From Hydrogenophaga crocea (lineage in GTDB: Bacteria; Pseudomonadota; Gammaproteobacteria; Burkholderiales; Burkholderiaceae_C): a DNA stretch of 64,000 nt. Positions within the stretch are counted from its first letter, which is position 1. Every line of letters begins with the position of its first letter. Under the pieces are notes generated by a model. The model did no database searches and was not told where the DNA came from. It saw nothing but the letters and a program-made list of their open reading frames with translations. Both the position numbers and the translations under genes were made by a program. The stretch spans positions 620,001 through 684,000 of the forward strand of contig NZ_CP049989.1 of the NCBI RefSeq assembly GCF_011388215.1. Reading direction: 5' to 3'. Below, one piece after another: positions 11,312 to 48,229 of this stretch.

Positions 11312-12112
11312 ATGCTCCTTGCCCAGGTGTCCGACCTGCATGTCTGCGCGCCCGGCCGCACCCTGGGCGGCGGCGTCGACACCCCGGCCATGGCCCGGGC
11401 CTGCGTGCAGGCCCTGCTCGCGCTGCGGCCCGCGCCCCAGGCGCTGCTGCTCAGTGGCGATCTGGTCGACGCCGGCGGGCCCGCCGAATACGCGCACCTG
11501 CAGCGGTTGCTGCAGCCGCTGCCCTGGCCCCTGTACCCCGTGGCGGGCAACCACGACGAGCGCGGTGCGCTGCGCGAGGCCTTCGGCGCCCGCATGGGCC
11601 CCCACAGCGCGCTCATGCCCGACTTCCTGCAGTACGCCGCCGACCTCGGCCCGCTGCGCCTGCTCGTGCTCGACACCGTGGTGCCGCAGCGGCCGCACGG
11701 CGCGCTGTGCGCGCGCCGCCTGGCCTGGCTCGGCGAACGCCTGCGCGAAGACGATCGCCCCGTGCTGATCGCGCTGCACCACCCGCCGTTCGCCACCGGC
11801 ATCGCCCACATGGACGCCATGGGCCTGCTCGAAGGCGCCGAGGCGCTCGAAGACCTGGTGCGCCGCCATCCCCGGGTACAGGCCTTGCTCTGCGGCCACG
11901 TGCACCGCAGCATCCAGACCCGCTTCGGGGGCGCCGTCGCCAGCGTCTGCCCGAGCCCGGCCCACCAGATCGCGCTCAACCTGCTCGGTCAGGGGGAGGA
12001 CGGGTTCACGCTGGAGCCGCCGGGCTTCCAGCTGCACCTGTGGCATGCACAGCGGCTGGTGAGCCACACCGTGCCCATCGGTGACCACGGCGGCACCCGA
12101 CCGTTTGCCTGA
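11312..12112 (+). CDS. calcineurin-like metallophosphoesterase (CpdA/Icc-like)
   Basis: Class III cyclic-nucleotide phosphodiesterase-like protein of 266 residues. All metal-site motifs of the family are visible in order: DLH near residue 10, GDLVD near 50, GNHDE near 77, LHHPPF near 155 and GHVHRS near 196. This is the CpdA arrangement, which hydrolyses cAMP in other bacteria, but relatives act on other phosphodiesters. I chose the ATG at 11312; the frame is open upstream but without family similarity. The stop lies four bases before the histidine kinase start, so the two genes are likely co-transcribed. Confidence 0.83.
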   Translation: MLLAQVSDLHVCAPGRTLGGGVDTPAMARACVQALLALRPAPQALLLSGDLVDAGGPAEYAHLQRLLQPLPWPLYPVAGNHDERGALREAFGARMGPHSALMPDFLQYAADLGPLRLLVLDTVVPQRPHGALCARRLAWLGERLREDDRPVLIALHHPPFATGIAHMDAMGLLEGAEALEDLVRRHPRVQALLCGHVHRSIQTRFGGAVASVCPSPAHQIALNLLGQGEDGFTLEPPGFQLHLWHAQRLVSHTVPIGDHGGTRPFA

Positions 12113-12116
12113 GACC

Positions 12117-14996
12117 ATGCGCGAGCCCGGCTCCTCTGCGTCGCCCTTGCCCTACGAGGCCTTGTTCATGGCCTCGTCGATCGCCAGCGCGATCTCGTCC
12201 GCGCACGACGGCCGCCTGATCGAGGTCAACCCCGCCTGGGAAGCGCTGTTCGGCACGCCGCGGGCCCAGGCCCTGGGCCGCACCACGCTTGAGCTCGGCC
12301 TGTGGGAGAGCAGCGAGGTGCGCGCGGCCTTCCTGCGCCAGATGCCCGGGCCGCTGCCGCCCGCGCGCCTGCGCAACTCGGCCGGCGAGCCCCTGATGGT
12401 GCGCATGCACGTGTCCACGCTCGCTTCCGCGGGCGGGCCGTTGCTGCTGGTGCAGATCACCCACGCCGAGCGCGAAGTGCAGGCCGAGACCGCGCGCGAG
12501 CGCAGCGAACAGGCCCTGTCGGCGCTCAACCGCGAGCTGCAGCAGCGCGTCGAGCTCCACACCGTCATCGAGCGCACGGCGCGCGTCGGCCACTGGACCA
12601 ACGCCGAAAACGCGCAAGAGGTGGTCTGGTCGGACGGTCTTTACGAGATCGCGGGCTTCACCCGCGACCCGGGCGGGCGCTTCACGCGCGCCATGGGGCG
12701 CAGCGGCATCCACCCCGACGACCTGCCCGCCTGGCTGGCGCTGCGCGAGCGGCTCGACGGCAGCGAGATCGTTTTCCGCTGGCTGCGGCCCGACGGCCAG
12801 CTGCGCTGGTTCCGCACCACCATGGGTCAGACCACGGTCAAGGGCAACCCGCAGACCGACTACGGTGTGGTGCAGGACATCACGTCCGAGCGCGAGGCCG
12901 CCGAGCGCCGCGAGCGGCTCACGCGCATGCTGGCCGCGGTCACGCAGGCGCAGGCGGTGTTCATCGAAGGCCAGGACCGGCGCCACGCCTTCCAGGGCCT
13001 GCTCGACGCCTTTCTCGCGGTCACGGGCAGCGAGTACGGCTTCGTCGGCGAGGTGCTGTACGACGCCGACGACCGGCCCTACCTGCGCACCAACGCGGTC
13101 ACCGACATTTCCTGGGACGAGGCCTCGCGCCAGCACTACGAGGCGCACCGCGAGACCGGCATGGAGTTCCGCAACCTCGGCACCCTGTTCGGTCACGCGC
13201 TGCGCACCGGCGAGCCGGTGATCGCGAACGACCCCGCGAACGACCCGCGCCGCGGCGGCATGCCCGGGGGCCATCGCGCGATGCGGGCCTTCCTGGGGGT
13301 GCCGCTGGCGGTGGGCGAGCGGCTCGTGGCCATGGTGGGCCTGGCCAACCAGCCGGGCGGCTACACCGCGGACGACGTGGGGTTTTTGCAGCCGCTGCTG
13401 GGCGCGCTGCGCCAGCTCGTGATGGCCTGGCGCGAGCACGAGGCCAGCCAGCGCACGCGCGAGCAGCTCGAAGCCACCAGCGCCTTGCTCGTGGACAAGA
13501 GTGCGGCCCTGCAGGACACGCTCGACAGCATCAGCCAGGGCCTGGTGAAGATCGGCGTGGACGGCCGGGTGCGGGTCTACAACCGCCGTTTCCTCGAACT
13601 GCTCGACCTGCCCGAAGCGGTGGTGGCCGACCACCCCTTGCACGACGACGTGATCCGCTTCCAGACCGCGCGCGGCGACTTCGGTCCCGGCATGGGCTGG
13701 GTCGACCCGCAGGCGCGCGAGTACCTCGAGCTCAGAAGCGGGGCGGACATGCCCGAGCATTTCTGGCGCCGCACGCGCCAGGGCCTCACGCTGGAGATCC
13801 GCACGCTCAAGCTGCCCGACGGCGGCCTCGTGCGCACCTACACCGACGTGACCTCGTACATCGCCACGCAGGACGCGCTGCGCGCGGAGCGCCAGCGTCT
13901 GGCCTGGGTGCTCGAAGCCACGCGCCCCGGCATCTGGGAGACCAACCTGCGCGAGCGCAGCATGGTGGTCAACGAGCGCTGGGCCGAGATGCTGGGCCAC
14001 ACGCTCGCCGAGCTGCAGCCCGTGAACTACGACACCTGGTACTCGCGCGTGCACCCCGAAGACCGCGAGCGCGCGATCGCCCTGCGCAACCGCCATGCGG
14101 CCGGCGAGCTGCCGTTCTACGAATGCGACATCCGCATGCGCCACAAGGACGGCCACTGGGTGTGGATCAACACGCGCGGGCGCGTGCACCGGCGCGACGA
14201 GCAGGGCGCGGCGCTGTACATGTCGGGCACGCACCTCGATGTGAGCGAGCGCGTGGCCGCGCAGGAGCAGATCCGCGCGCTCAACGCCGGCCTGGAGCAG
14301 CGCGTGCGCGAGCGCACGGCCGAGCTCGAGCGCTCGATGCGCGACATGGAGGCCATCTCGTACTCCATCGCGCACGACCTGCGCGCGCCGCTGCGCTCGG
14401 TCAACGGCTTTGCGCAGGTGATCGAAGAAGAAGAGCTGCAACGCCTGAGCGCCAGCGGCCGCGAGATGTTCGCGCGCATTTCGCGCTCGGCGCGCAACAT
14501 GGGCCAGATGATCACCGACATGCTCGAGCTGCTGCGGGTGGTGCAGGTCGACCTGGAGCCGCGGCCGGTGGACATGGCCGCGCTTGCGCACGCGGTGGCC
14601 GAGGCCCTCGGGCCGCAGGCGCCGGCCGCACGCATCGAGGTGTGCGAGCTGCCGCTGGCGATGGGCGACGCCACGCTGCTGCGCCAGGTGCTGAGCAACC
14701 TGGTGGACAACGCGCTCAAGTACTCGCGCCAGCGGGCCGATCCGCGCGTGCAGGTGGGGCACGACGCGGTGCAGGGCGCCTATTTCGTGCGCGACAACGG
14801 CATCGGCTTCGACATGGCGCGCGCGAACAAGCTGTTCGGTCTGTTCCAGCGGCTGCAGGCCCACAGCGACGTGCCCGGCATGGGCGTGGGGCTGGCGATC
14901 GTGCAGCGCATCGTCGAGCGGCACGGCGGGCGGGTCTGGGCCGAGGCCGCGCCGGGGCAGGGCGCCACGTTCTGGTTCCGGTTGCCGCTGGCTTGA
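12117..14996 (+). CDS. multi-PAS/GAF sensor histidine kinase
   Basis: Soluble-looking sensor kinase of 959 residues with no convincing membrane segment. Domains in order are PAS (about 10-120), PAS (about 165-265, with WTNAENAQEVVWSDG), GAF (about 285-435, ending before a helical linker), PAS_7-type (about 470-580, starting DSISQGLVKIG), PAS (about 595-710), HisKA with phospho-acceptor His753 in SIAHDLRAPLRS, and HATPase_c with the N box near 860 (NLVDNALKYS), DNGIGF near 895 and GMGVGL near 921. The ATG at 12117 is four bases after the preceding stop; a GTG at 12081 would overlap that gene. No response regulator is encoded next to it, so it is an orphan kinase here. It resembles phytochrome-like kinases, but I see no bilin-binding cysteine. 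Confidence 0.87.
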   Translation: MREPGSSASPLPYEALFMASSIASAISSAHDGRLIEVNPAWEALFGTPRAQALGRTTLELGLWESSEVRAAFLRQMPGPLPPARLRNSAGEPLMVRMHVSTLASAGGPLLLVQITHAEREVQAETARERSEQALSALNRELQQRVELHTVIERTARVGHWTNAENAQEVVWSDGLYEIAGFTRDPGGRFTRAMGRSGIHPDDLPAWLALRERLDGSEIVFRWLRPDGQLRWFRTTMGQTTVKGNPQTDYGVVQDITSEREAAERRERLTRMLAAVTQAQAVFIEGQDRRHAFQGLLDAFLAVTGSEYGFVGEVLYDADDRPYLRTNAVTDISWDEASRQHYEAHRETGMEFRNLGTLFGHALRTGEPVIANDPANDPRRGGMPGGHRAMRAFLGVPLAVGERLVAMVGLANQPGGYTADDVGFLQPLLGALRQLVMAWREHEASQRTREQLEATSALLVDKSAALQDTLDSISQGLVKIGVDGRVRVYNRRFLELLDLPEAVVADHPLHDDVIRFQTARGDFGPGMGWVDPQAREYLELRSGADMPEHFWRRTRQGLTLEIRTLKLPDGGLVRTYTDVTSYIATQDALRAERQRLAWVLEATRPGIWETNLRERSMVVNERWAEMLGHTLAELQPVNYDTWYSRVHPEDRERAIALRNRHAAGELPFYECDIRMRHKDGHWVWINTRGRVHRRDEQGAALYMSGTHLDVSERVAAQEQIRALNAGLEQRVRERTAELERSMRDMEAISYSIAHDLRAPLRSVNGFAQVIEEEELQRLSASGREMFARISRSARNMGQMITDMLELLRVVQVDLEPRPVDMAALAHAVAEALGPQAPAARIEVCELPLAMGDATLLRQVLSNLVDNALKYSRQRADPRVQVGHDAVQGAYFVRDNGIGFDMARANKLFGLFQRLQAHSDVPGMGVGLAIVQRIVERHGGRVWAEAAPGQGATFWFRLPLA

Positions 14997-15026
14997 GGAT
15001 CGGTTTCCTTTTGTCGCGCTTCTTCA

Positions 15027-15176
15027 GGGCCGATGGAGCGGGTGCCCGTGCACCGGCGTGCTCGCGGGCGGCGGTGTTTGGGGAGCGGGCACCGTTTCGT
15101 CAACACCGTGATGGGTGCGCGGCTTCTGTGGCAACCGCGAATGGCGCCTGCGCACGGACACCCGCTCCATCGGCCC
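15027..15176. repeat. repeat unit A: about 105-base core between 25-base inverted arms
   Basis: Bases 15027-15051 (GGGCCGATGGAGCGGGTG then CCCGTGC) recur as reverse complement at 15152-15176 with one mismatch. Between them lies a core of about 100 bases that contains CGTGCTCGCGGGCGGCGG near its left end and CTGTGGCAACCGCGAATGGC near its right end. The same core, inverted, forms unit B. The layout (short arms around a short non-coding core) resembles a miniature inverted-repeat element, but I recognise no known family and see no target-site duplication. Confidence 0.7.
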
Positions 15177-15189
15177 CAGCGACACAAAG

Positions 15190-15209
15190 GCGCGCCAACG
15201 TTGGTGCGC
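15190..15209. repeat. central palindrome of the mosaic
   Basis: GCGCGCCAACGTTGGTGCGC is a 20-base palindrome with a single G-T pair out of place, centred between 15199 and 15200. It sits at the symmetry centre of units A and B, whose outer ends are about 172 bases to either side. Confidence 0.7.
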
Positions 15210-15223
15210 ACAGGTCTCCTCGG

Positions 15224-15369
15224 GTCGGGTGGCGGGGTTCGTGTGCGCAGGAGCCATTCGCGGTTGCCACAGAGTCAGCGCCCCAACAACGTCGTTGACG
15301 AAGCAAGCTCAGCACACCAGAAGCCGCCGCCCGCGAGCACGCCGGAGCACACGAACCCCGCCACCCGAC
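15224..15369. repeat. repeat unit B: inverted copy of the core, between different 23-base arms
   Basis: Bases 15224-15246 (GTCGGGTGGCGGGGTTCGTG then TGC) recur perfectly as reverse complement at 15347-15369. The enclosed core is the reverse complement of the unit A core, at roughly three-quarters identity, best over CTGTGGCAACCGCGAATGGC and CCGGCGTGCTCGCGGGCGGC. The arms differ completely from those of unit A, so the two units share a core but not their ends. Confidence 0.7.
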
Positions 15370-15409
15370 TCCGCGAAGCAGTCGAGCGAAACCTCAGGGT
15401 AGAGACACC

Positions 15410-16366
15410 TCAGAACGGCGCGCTTTCGTCCTTGGGCGCCACGTCGGGCCCCTCGTCAGCAGAGGCCCCTTCCACAGCCGGCGAAGGCTTGGAAGCAAGC
15501 CCCGTCTTGCGCGCCGCCGCGCGCGCCTGGCGCACCGCGGCCTTGTCGCCCGCGCTCGCGAACTTGCTGTATTTGCCCGTGAGGCCCACGAGCTGGCCGT
15601 AGATCTTGGGGTTGGCGGCCAGGCATTCCTTCTGTTCGAGGAAATCGGGCTCGCCCGTGAAATTGCCGATCAGGCCGCCGGCCTCGGTGACCAGCAGCGA
15701 ACCCGCGGCCACGTCCCAGGGCGACAGGCCCATCTCGAAGAAGCCGTCGCTGAAACCCGCGGCCACGTAGGCCAGGTCGAGCGCGGCCGAGCCCGGGCGG
15801 CGCACGCCGGCCACCTTGGGCATCACCTCGCCGAGCATCTGCATGTAGGTCTGGAAGGCGTCGCCCGGGCGGAAGGGAAAGCCCGTGGAAATCAGGCAGT
15901 CGCGCAGCGTGGTGCGCTTGGCCACGCGGATGCGGCGCTCGTTGAGGTAGGCGCCGCGCCCGCGCGTGGCGCAGAACAGGTCGTTGCGCGTGGGGTCGTA
16001 GACCACGGCCTGCTCGATGCGGCCGTCGACCATGAGCGCGATGCTCACGCAGTAGACGGGGAAGCCGTGGATGAAGTTGGTGGTGCCGTCCAGCGGATCG
16101 ATGATCCACACGTGGTTCTTGTCACGGCCCTTGCCGGGCGTGCGGCCCGACTCTTCGGCCCAGATGCCGTGGTCGGGGTAGGCGGTCTTGAGGGTTTCGA
16201 TGATCGCGGCTTCGGCCGCGTGATCGACCTCGGTCACGAAGTCGTTGGTCTGCTTGACCGACACCCGCACGGTCTCGACGTCGAGTGCGGCGCGGTTGAT
16301 GAGGGCGCCGGCGGCGCGGGCGGCCTTGACGGCCACGTTGAGCATGGGGTGTGAGCTGGACGACAT
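15410..16366 (-). CDS. suhB: inositol-1-monophosphatase family protein
   Basis: Mg-dependent inositol monophosphatase, 318 residues; the catalytic domain ends near residue 265 and a poorly conserved charged Ala/Lys-rich tail of about 50 residues follows, as is common in Burkholderiales. Metal-site motifs are WAEESG (about 67-72), DPLDGTTNF (about 90-98) and WDVAAGSLL (about 217-225). SuhB also acts in rRNA antitermination in enterobacteria, which may be its main role here. It is divergent from trmJ across a 109-base gap. Confidence 0.9.
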
Positions 16367-48144: not shown

Positions 48145-48229
48145 GCCGACGTGGTGAAATTGGTAGACACGCTATCTTGAGGGGGTAGTGGCGAAAGCTG
48201 TGCGAGTTCGAGTCTCGCCGTCGGCACCA
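48145..48229 (+). tRNA. tRNA-Leu, anticodon GAG
   Basis: The 85-base sequence folds as a class II tRNA. The acceptor stem GCCGACG/CGTCGGC is perfect and the ACCA end is encoded. The D-arm region is GGTGAAATTGGTAGAC, the anticodon stem is CTATC/GGTAG with loop TTGAGGG (anticodon GAG, reading CUU/CUC), a long variable arm follows, and the T loop is TTCGAGTCT. It lies between secG and nuoA. Confidence 0.96.

Follow-up and report, generated by a model that had tools for sequence, protein, structure and literature searches.

Integron attC sites are fold-dependent sites with variable, self-complementary arms, and their passengers include toxin-antitoxin and defence genes. There is one site per cassette, in one direction, and the boxes at the stem base are conserved; in integrase-less integron arrays no enzyme lies beside the attC sites. 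Another described repeat, ERIC, is a long stem-loop comparable to the Ype and Efa repeats. REPs carry a GTAG or CGTC tag at one end, and IS110-type bridge RNAs have guide loops that match donor and target. In the available part of their description, Ype and Efa are intergenic stem-loop elements larger than REPs that prefer the 3' ends of genes (PMC1590033). According to the available parts of PMC3116915 and PMC3733652, respectively, REPINs are inverted doublets with a spacer and compensatory changes, and REPs are found where neighbouring genes are convergent or co-directional. Both compact and cargo forms are described for MITEs, mobile insertion cassettes and TIMEs (PMC4133298, available part).

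The locus examined here lies in a 64,000-nt stretch of Hydrogenophaga crocea DNA (the window), between two convergent genes that point at it, a histidine-kinase-like gene (12081-14996, + strand, ending at 14996) and an inositol monophosphatase (suhB)-like gene (15410-16366, - strand, ending at 15410), whose functions were taken from their translations. Unit A (15027-15176) is an imperfect hairpin of about 150 nt with arms of the type GGGCCG-TGG, and unit B (15224-15369) has the same core in inverted orientation within arms of a different type; the wobble signature described below is on the - strand in A and on the + strand in B. The opposed cores, proposed from the sequence-only reading, were recovered as a 116-nt inverted repeat (15040-15155 / 15243-15358, 78% complementary), and in unit A the core (15052-15151) contains the conserved boxes CTCGCGGG, TTCGTCAAC and CTGTGGCAACCGCGAATG and covarying inner stems. 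Sequence reading and inverted-repeat search placed the 5' arm of A at 15027-15051 and the outer arm of B at 15347-15369, their partners being 15152-15176 and, on the spacer side, 15224-15246. By eye, pairing over the initial 25 nt of A is broken by a single mismatch, which reads C.A on the + strand and G.U on the - strand, and the initial 23 nt of B pair perfectly, as had been claimed; the inverted-repeat tool gave arms of 32 nt for A (15027-15058 / 15145-15176, 91% complementary) and 28 nt for B (15224-15251 / 15342-15369, 93% complementary). The spacer (15177-15223) is the site of inserts in some relatives and contains the 20-base palindrome reported earlier (15190-15209), which by eye has one mismatched pair and is therefore near-perfect. 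Outside unit B, the flank at 15370-15393 looks like the flanks of B-type ends at other loci in the same genome and probably belongs to the element.

No promoter-like (sigma-70) or terminator-like site was found in 14950-15450, and an intrinsic terminator or a sigma-70 promoter was discarded as the identity of the feature. The only Rfam match above cut-off in the window was a tRNA at 48145-48226, with none at the element, and none above the family cut-off was obtained at nine other element loci (the best sub-threshold scores at element loci had E values of 0.05 and 0.52); on these searches a known RNA family was discarded as well.

The feature is one copy of a repeat family in Hydrogenophaga and related bacteria. 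The H. crocea genome (G000) contains eight units at five loci (ten rows in the unit list, two of which are reverse readings of units already listed): the window locus at 15027-15369 and loci at 684 kb, 1185 kb (a solo unit), 2872 kb and 3831 kb. A covariance model of the ~150-nt unit (R1) was built from an alignment of 63 units, which left out one truncated unit (in L035) and two duplicate contigs. At E 1e-5 it matched 40 of 67 Hydrogenophaga genomes, H. crocea included, and 27 were without a match; across the bacterial family at least 42 of 349 genomes and at least 26 of 141 genera were matched, these counts being lower bounds since eight candidates were scored per genome. Rescoring gave 34 matches each in G197 and G107 and 56 in G207, the highest number among the genomes listed. 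A search with a core pattern led to four contigs, three from Hydrogenophaga and one from an unclassified Burkholderiales MAG. No match was found for the window element in plasmid and phage collections, for three relatives' elements or one unit in the plasmid collection, for one relative's element in the phage collection, or for one exact pattern in viral contigs. Local duplication was rejected on the copies at unrelated loci and in other genera. The feature is not unique, which corrects the earlier description, and the lack of any other copy, named in the sequence-only reading as a refuting result, is contradicted by the copies found in the same genome and in relatives. Our literature search, with most subscription journals outside its reach, found no description of the family.

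The arrangement of the units follows a rule. Neighbouring units less than 250 nt apart were + then - (head-to-head) in 100 of 106 cases, the others being four - -, one - + and one + +. Same-orientation units occur in L210, L157 and genome G393; in the last, the units of L219, L256 and L257 are direct tandems with 94-97% identity, 200-206 nt apart. For 76 pairs with gaps below 200 nt (152 units), the 5' arm was compared over 26 positions; on average 17.9 matched in its own 3' arm, 11.9 in the partner's and 12.9 in 3' arms sampled from other loci. The arms fitted their own unit better than the partner's in 148/152 units, with two ties. The earlier statement that the arms of A and B are unrelated was thereby confirmed in the sense that is relevant here, and unlike arms are the rule of the family. 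Window unit A is nearest to A-type units of its own genome (84-86%), and unit B is nearest to the B-type unit at 3831 kb (81%), then to that at 684 kb (79%) and, over a shorter stretch, to the solo unit at 1185 kb. Given that same-type ends at other loci are nearest and that the units stay head-to-head, a single element whose two ends are unlike describes the feature better than the composite of two miniature elements suggested before, and from these sequence comparisons the two arm sets read as two inherited ends of one element.

Additional repeated pieces were seen outside some pairs. G197 (L117-L138) has further repeated flanks with a CGGCCCKTTGC-like end, and in two of its copies (L126 and L127) the second hairpin is missing and the outer flank is kept. 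In L112-L116, L143, L155 and L156, partial repeated end-arm pieces lie in the flanks just outside full units, as if they were truncated older ends or a re-copied end. One survey of the elements was based on 113 distinct elements out of 120.

When units A and B were folded separately, none of 200 shuffles folded as well on either strand (z -6.5 to -7.3; for the two strands, A -7.30 versus -7.04 and B -6.50 versus -6.62), and in the window units the minimum free energy was lower on the strand opposite to the wobble-favoured one. The whole 413-nt intergenic stretch was likewise not equalled by any of 100 shuffles (z -13.8 and -10.0 for the two strands); the spacer alone was unremarkable (z -1.7, 12/200 shuffles equally well folded). 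In alignment A1, 92.2% of the cells at 20 tested pairs were paired in the standard way versus 78.9% in shuffles, and the fraction fell to 27.6-43.0% when the partner was slid. Cells changed on both sides numbered 148 versus 47.8 +/- 4.9 in shuffles (0/500 as high); a weaker covariation measure, the number of further pair types, gave 30 versus 26.5 and was reached by 27/500 shuffles. The inner pair 35-127, for example, is C-G in 25, G-C in 21 and U-A in nine cases. These results show that the arms vary in sequence yet keep their complementarity. Two exclusive structures, separate hairpins or one large fold across both units, had been proposed earlier. They are possible for the single sequence, the minimum free energy structure of the whole + strand being the large hairpin (-262.6 kcal/mol); covariation, however, favours the two separate hairpins, because the two arms of a unit complement each other and not those of the partner.

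A further signature distinguishes the two strands of each unit. We call outward that strand of each unit which is read from the middle of the pair towards its edge. Arm mismatches flanked by Watson-Crick pairs were G.U in 387 cases on the outward strand and in 19 on the other. The count was made on 218 distinct arms, left after duplicates had been removed from 244 of 270 units (at least 148 nt long, with at least 15 paired arm positions). The bias was present at nearly all of positions -22 to -4 (175 units), and in Hydrogenophaga (158 to 10) as well as in other genera (227 to 9). Of 62 groups, which are the genomes and one unit without a genome assignment, 57 agreed in direction, one was opposed and four were equal. 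Beside the core, the outward strand has conserved G.A or A.G mismatches at -2, -1, +1 and +3, and the consensus fold of 148 units under 85% identity was -87.6 for this strand versus -71.1 for the other. Mutation bias was rejected as the cause of the asymmetry, given that the unpaired core columns of the outward strand are slightly biased in the opposite direction (C>T 125/1924, 6.5%; G>A 183/2025, 9.0%). The wobble pairs thus point to one selected strand per unit. A double-stranded cruciform as the selected form is disfavoured, since both strands would then weigh equally, whereas the counts are unequal. The G.U signature suggests RNA, though single-stranded DNA, in which G.T and G.A are also the better mismatches, fits too.

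To find the same junction in other genomes, the suhB end was searched in 67 genomes; it matched in 64, and 30 of the loci were retrieved. In all 30, the kinase-like and suhB-like genes, placed by protein matches (the gene caller alone found suhB in 11/30), are convergent neighbours, and units were present at their junction in H. crocea only, the other 29/29 genomes being without the element. The two protein matches end 419 nt apart in H. crocea and 12-127 nt apart in nine other loci with a full-length suhB match. Unoccupied sites, whose existence had been raised from the sequence, were also found when the joined 260-base flanks of the five H. crocea elements were searched in close relatives: the 684 kb site is unoccupied in G048, G055, G103, G027 and G025 (2-57 nt between flank matches), the 3831 kb site in G048, G055, G103, G038 and G027 (3-36 nt) and the 1185 kb site in G048 (15 nt), and a match for the 2872-kb flanks in G055 was poorly aligned on one side. 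No target duplication was readable at the unoccupied junctions, and since these are short and diverged the boundary of the element is not placeable to the base. At one of them (L226, in G055, corresponding to the 684-kb locus), the approximately 57 nt contain a short inverted repeat of high GC flanked by A- and T-rich stretches, which by eye is like an ordinary two-way terminator.

Most pairs are closely spaced: where the gap is below 1,600 nt (104 pairs, median 64), it is at most 220 nt in 99 and 501-1,286 nt in the other five. A sixth wide pair, L213, spans 11 kb. In another pair, L212 (3-kb gap), the enclosed gene resembles the host in its codon use, and it was not counted as an insert. In all six wide pairs the GC content of the insert is lower than that of the flanks. 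Recognised passenger genes were found in four of them: ParD_antitoxin and ParE_toxin in L103, a HARE-HTH protein in L211, DUF6678 in L255, and DrmA, DrmB and UvrD- and NERD-type helicases in L213, where GC is about 0.50 versus 0.64 in the surroundings. L140 has a lipoprotein-like frame without a Pfam match, and L104 one 45-residue frame without a match. The DISARM-like DrmA/DrmB island (L213:2539-13873, G133:C216) adjoins a lolA-like gene, named from its translation. A different arrangement is seen in L210:1327-4242 (G133:C280), which has three same-orientation units: Gp49/HTH_37 and PIN_3 genes separate the first unit from the second, a Uma2 gene lies past the third, and GC is not lower (0.614 versus 0.608). 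In the five wide pairs whose arms were compared, these are unlike in L103 and L255, alike in L140 and ambiguous in L211 and L213. Among the frames searched between wide pairs no transposase or recombinase was recognised, so that the full-length relative with a transposase looked for on the basis of the sequence-only reading did not appear there.

We lean towards the view that the window feature is a compact non-autonomous mobile element with two structured, unlike ends of ~150 nt; it is the few relatives with toxin-antitoxin or phage-defence genes between their hairpins that make the units read as the ends of a mobile element. The head-to-head units, with a common core and differing arms, could serve as distinguishable left and right ends. 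We infer that an enzyme supplied in trans would recognise each end by its shared core, folded in single-stranded form on the outward-reading strand (single-stranded DNA or an RNA copy), and would move the pair plus whatever lies between. Copies would survive where they are least harmful, at the 3' ends of genes and chiefly between convergent genes, and old copies may persist since ending in a hairpin benefits a transcript or does it no harm. Copies at five unrelated loci of the same genome and in at least 26 of 141 genera of the family, empty sites, the fixed order of the units, arms that fit their own unit, covariation, the strand asymmetry and the low-GC inserts count for this reading. Counting against it are that no transposase or recombinase was recognised in the frames searched, no enzyme was tied to the family and no target duplication was seen, that the plasmid and phage collections and, for one exact pattern, viral contigs gave no match, which would be odd for an element moving between cells, that single-sequence energies show no preference for the wobble strand, that one covariation measure is weak, and that not all wide pairs have unlike arms and some units have the same orientation. 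In this account the anatomy given by the sequence-only reading is retained, together with other copies, empty sites and a fold signature on one strand, and its composite origin is replaced.

An extended form of this proposal, which we put forward tentatively and regard as rather unlikely, is a fold-dependent cassette system outside integrons, in which the ends would be head-to-head, the outward strand would be recognised in folded form, unlike arms would mark left and right, and an enzyme located elsewhere would spread toxin-antitoxin and phage-defence genes among Burkholderiaceae chromosomes. If true, the mobile reading adds a family of chromosomal elements whose ends are selected as single-stranded folds and which can carry defence genes, and offers such genes a possible way into quiet places on the chromosome; the wobble asymmetry would then predict the recognised strand directly.

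The placement of the elements bears on another explanation. Among 155 elements with both neighbours called (out of 165 distinct among 191 elements), the flanking genes are convergent for 75, co-directional for 67 and divergent for 13. The background, 193 further junctions that measure at least 30 nt and come from the longer of these loci, divides into 16, 118 and 59, respectively. The element counts are not all independent, since the same junction in several genomes was counted each time. With gene names taken from translations, elements occupy the rsmG-lysE junction in nine genomes and the purH-hemL junction in five, in each case from two genera. The loci of the former, seen as an rsmG-lysE-parA junction, are L042, L045, L054, L060, L083, L149, L260, L262 and L274. 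For the rsmG-lysE units of G013, the copies of the other genus are outside the five nearest, and thus both repeated insertion and deep divergence are possible; unit B at purH-hemL in G021 has its nearest relatives at that junction in G039 and G052, which suggests inheritance.

Such shared junctions count against mobility inasmuch as they also fit a structured RNA that serves the host, in which the outward hairpin would protect or end each transcript that crosses it, convergent genes would use one pair for both directions, and mobility would be past or rare. We consider this rather unlikely, and a serious rival all the same, and the two readings may apply to different copies. A host RNA would agree with the confinement of the G.U signature to one strand, the conserved unpaired boxes and G.A/A.G positions, the excess between convergent genes (75/155 versus 16/193, with shared junctions counted repeatedly) and the occupation of some junctions in several genomes, including the kinship of the G021 purH-hemL unit B with the G039 and G052 copies. 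It is opposed by the lack of a promoter- or terminator-like site in 14950-15450 and of an Rfam family over cut-off in the window region or at the nine other loci, by the 27/67 genomes of the genus without a match at E 1e-5, by the absence of H. crocea copies from close relatives and by the inserts with passenger genes, which a host RNA would not lead one to expect. If it were true, the pair would be a structure that is widespread in high-GC betaproteobacteria at the 3' ends of convergent genes; under either reading the odd mosaic is explained as a family rule.

A candidate for moving the elements was sought among Y1_Tnp genes, which were found in 56 of 67 genomes, as a single copy in all but two of the 56 (in H. 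crocea at G000:C1:4371597-4371908). The gene is present in 37/40 genomes with units and in 19/27 without (Fisher's exact test, p = 0.02), a weak association that was counted by hand and is raw with respect to genome completeness. In 30 fetched loci out of 58 matches, covering up to about 1.5 kb on each side of the gene, there were no units, no 14-mer repeated three times and no obvious flanking repeats, which leaves a RAYT weak as the mover. These data bear on the explanation that the feature is an outsized REPIN, that is two inverted palindromic units dispersed by a single-copy RAYT (REP-associated tyrosine transposase). The layout as an inverted doublet with spacer and compensatory changes, the placing between convergent and co-directional genes (as in the available parts of PMC3116915 and PMC3733652) and the distribution of Y1_Tnp all agree with it, and the absence of units and of the repeated 14-mer around the Y1_Tnp genes read, the unit length of ~150 rather than 20-40 nt, the low copy number (eight units in H. 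crocea and no more than 56 in any genome listed) and the 19/27 unit-free genomes that still have the gene make it improbable.

Even less probable, in our judgement, is an ordinary MITE, including passenger forms, of a known insertion sequence with long hairpin-like ends. Its inverted terminal layout, lack of a transposase and occurrence in compact and cargo forms would be those of MITEs, mobile insertion cassettes and TIMEs (PMC4133298, available part). Neither a related insertion sequence nor a target duplication was found in the material searched, and no parent insertion sequence with the same ends was seen in the wide pairs read. Moreover, recognition of the ends in double-stranded form would not predict one-strand wobble or arms that covary within each end, both of which are seen here.

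Compared with these systems, the family is like REP doublets, REPINs and BIMEs in its inverted palindromic units, spacer, compensatory changes and extragenic position downstream of genes, and it has the two inverted units with a spacer that characterize REPINs (100/106 + then -). It differs in its longer unit, of ~150 instead of 20-40 nt and with a conserved core and loops that are its own, in the two unlike sets of arms in each pair, in its few copies where REPs are in high copy, in having no unit beside the Y1_Tnp genes read, where REPIN units flank the RAYT, and in pairs that enclose passengers. As in MITEs, mobile insertion cassettes and TIMEs, the elements are short, interspersed and transposase-free with an inverted terminal layout, have empty sites and occur in compact and passenger forms; as in mobile insertion cassettes, six wide pairs enclose inserts in which no transposase was seen among the frames searched. 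Unlike in these, each terminal repeat is a hairpin with a one-strand signature, and the left and right ends differ. The likeness to attC sites is in arms that are variable yet self-complementary, in defence and toxin-antitoxin passengers and in the absence of an enzyme alongside; in place of repeats in one direction, however, the units are mostly head-to-head (exceptions in G393, L157 and L210), and in place of conserved boxes at the stem base it is the inner core that is conserved, the outer arms being variable. With Ype and Efa, as described in the available part of PMC1590033, the family has in common repeated intergenic stem-loops near the 3' ends of genes, and it is set apart from that description by the head-to-head pair, the unlike arms and the inserts.
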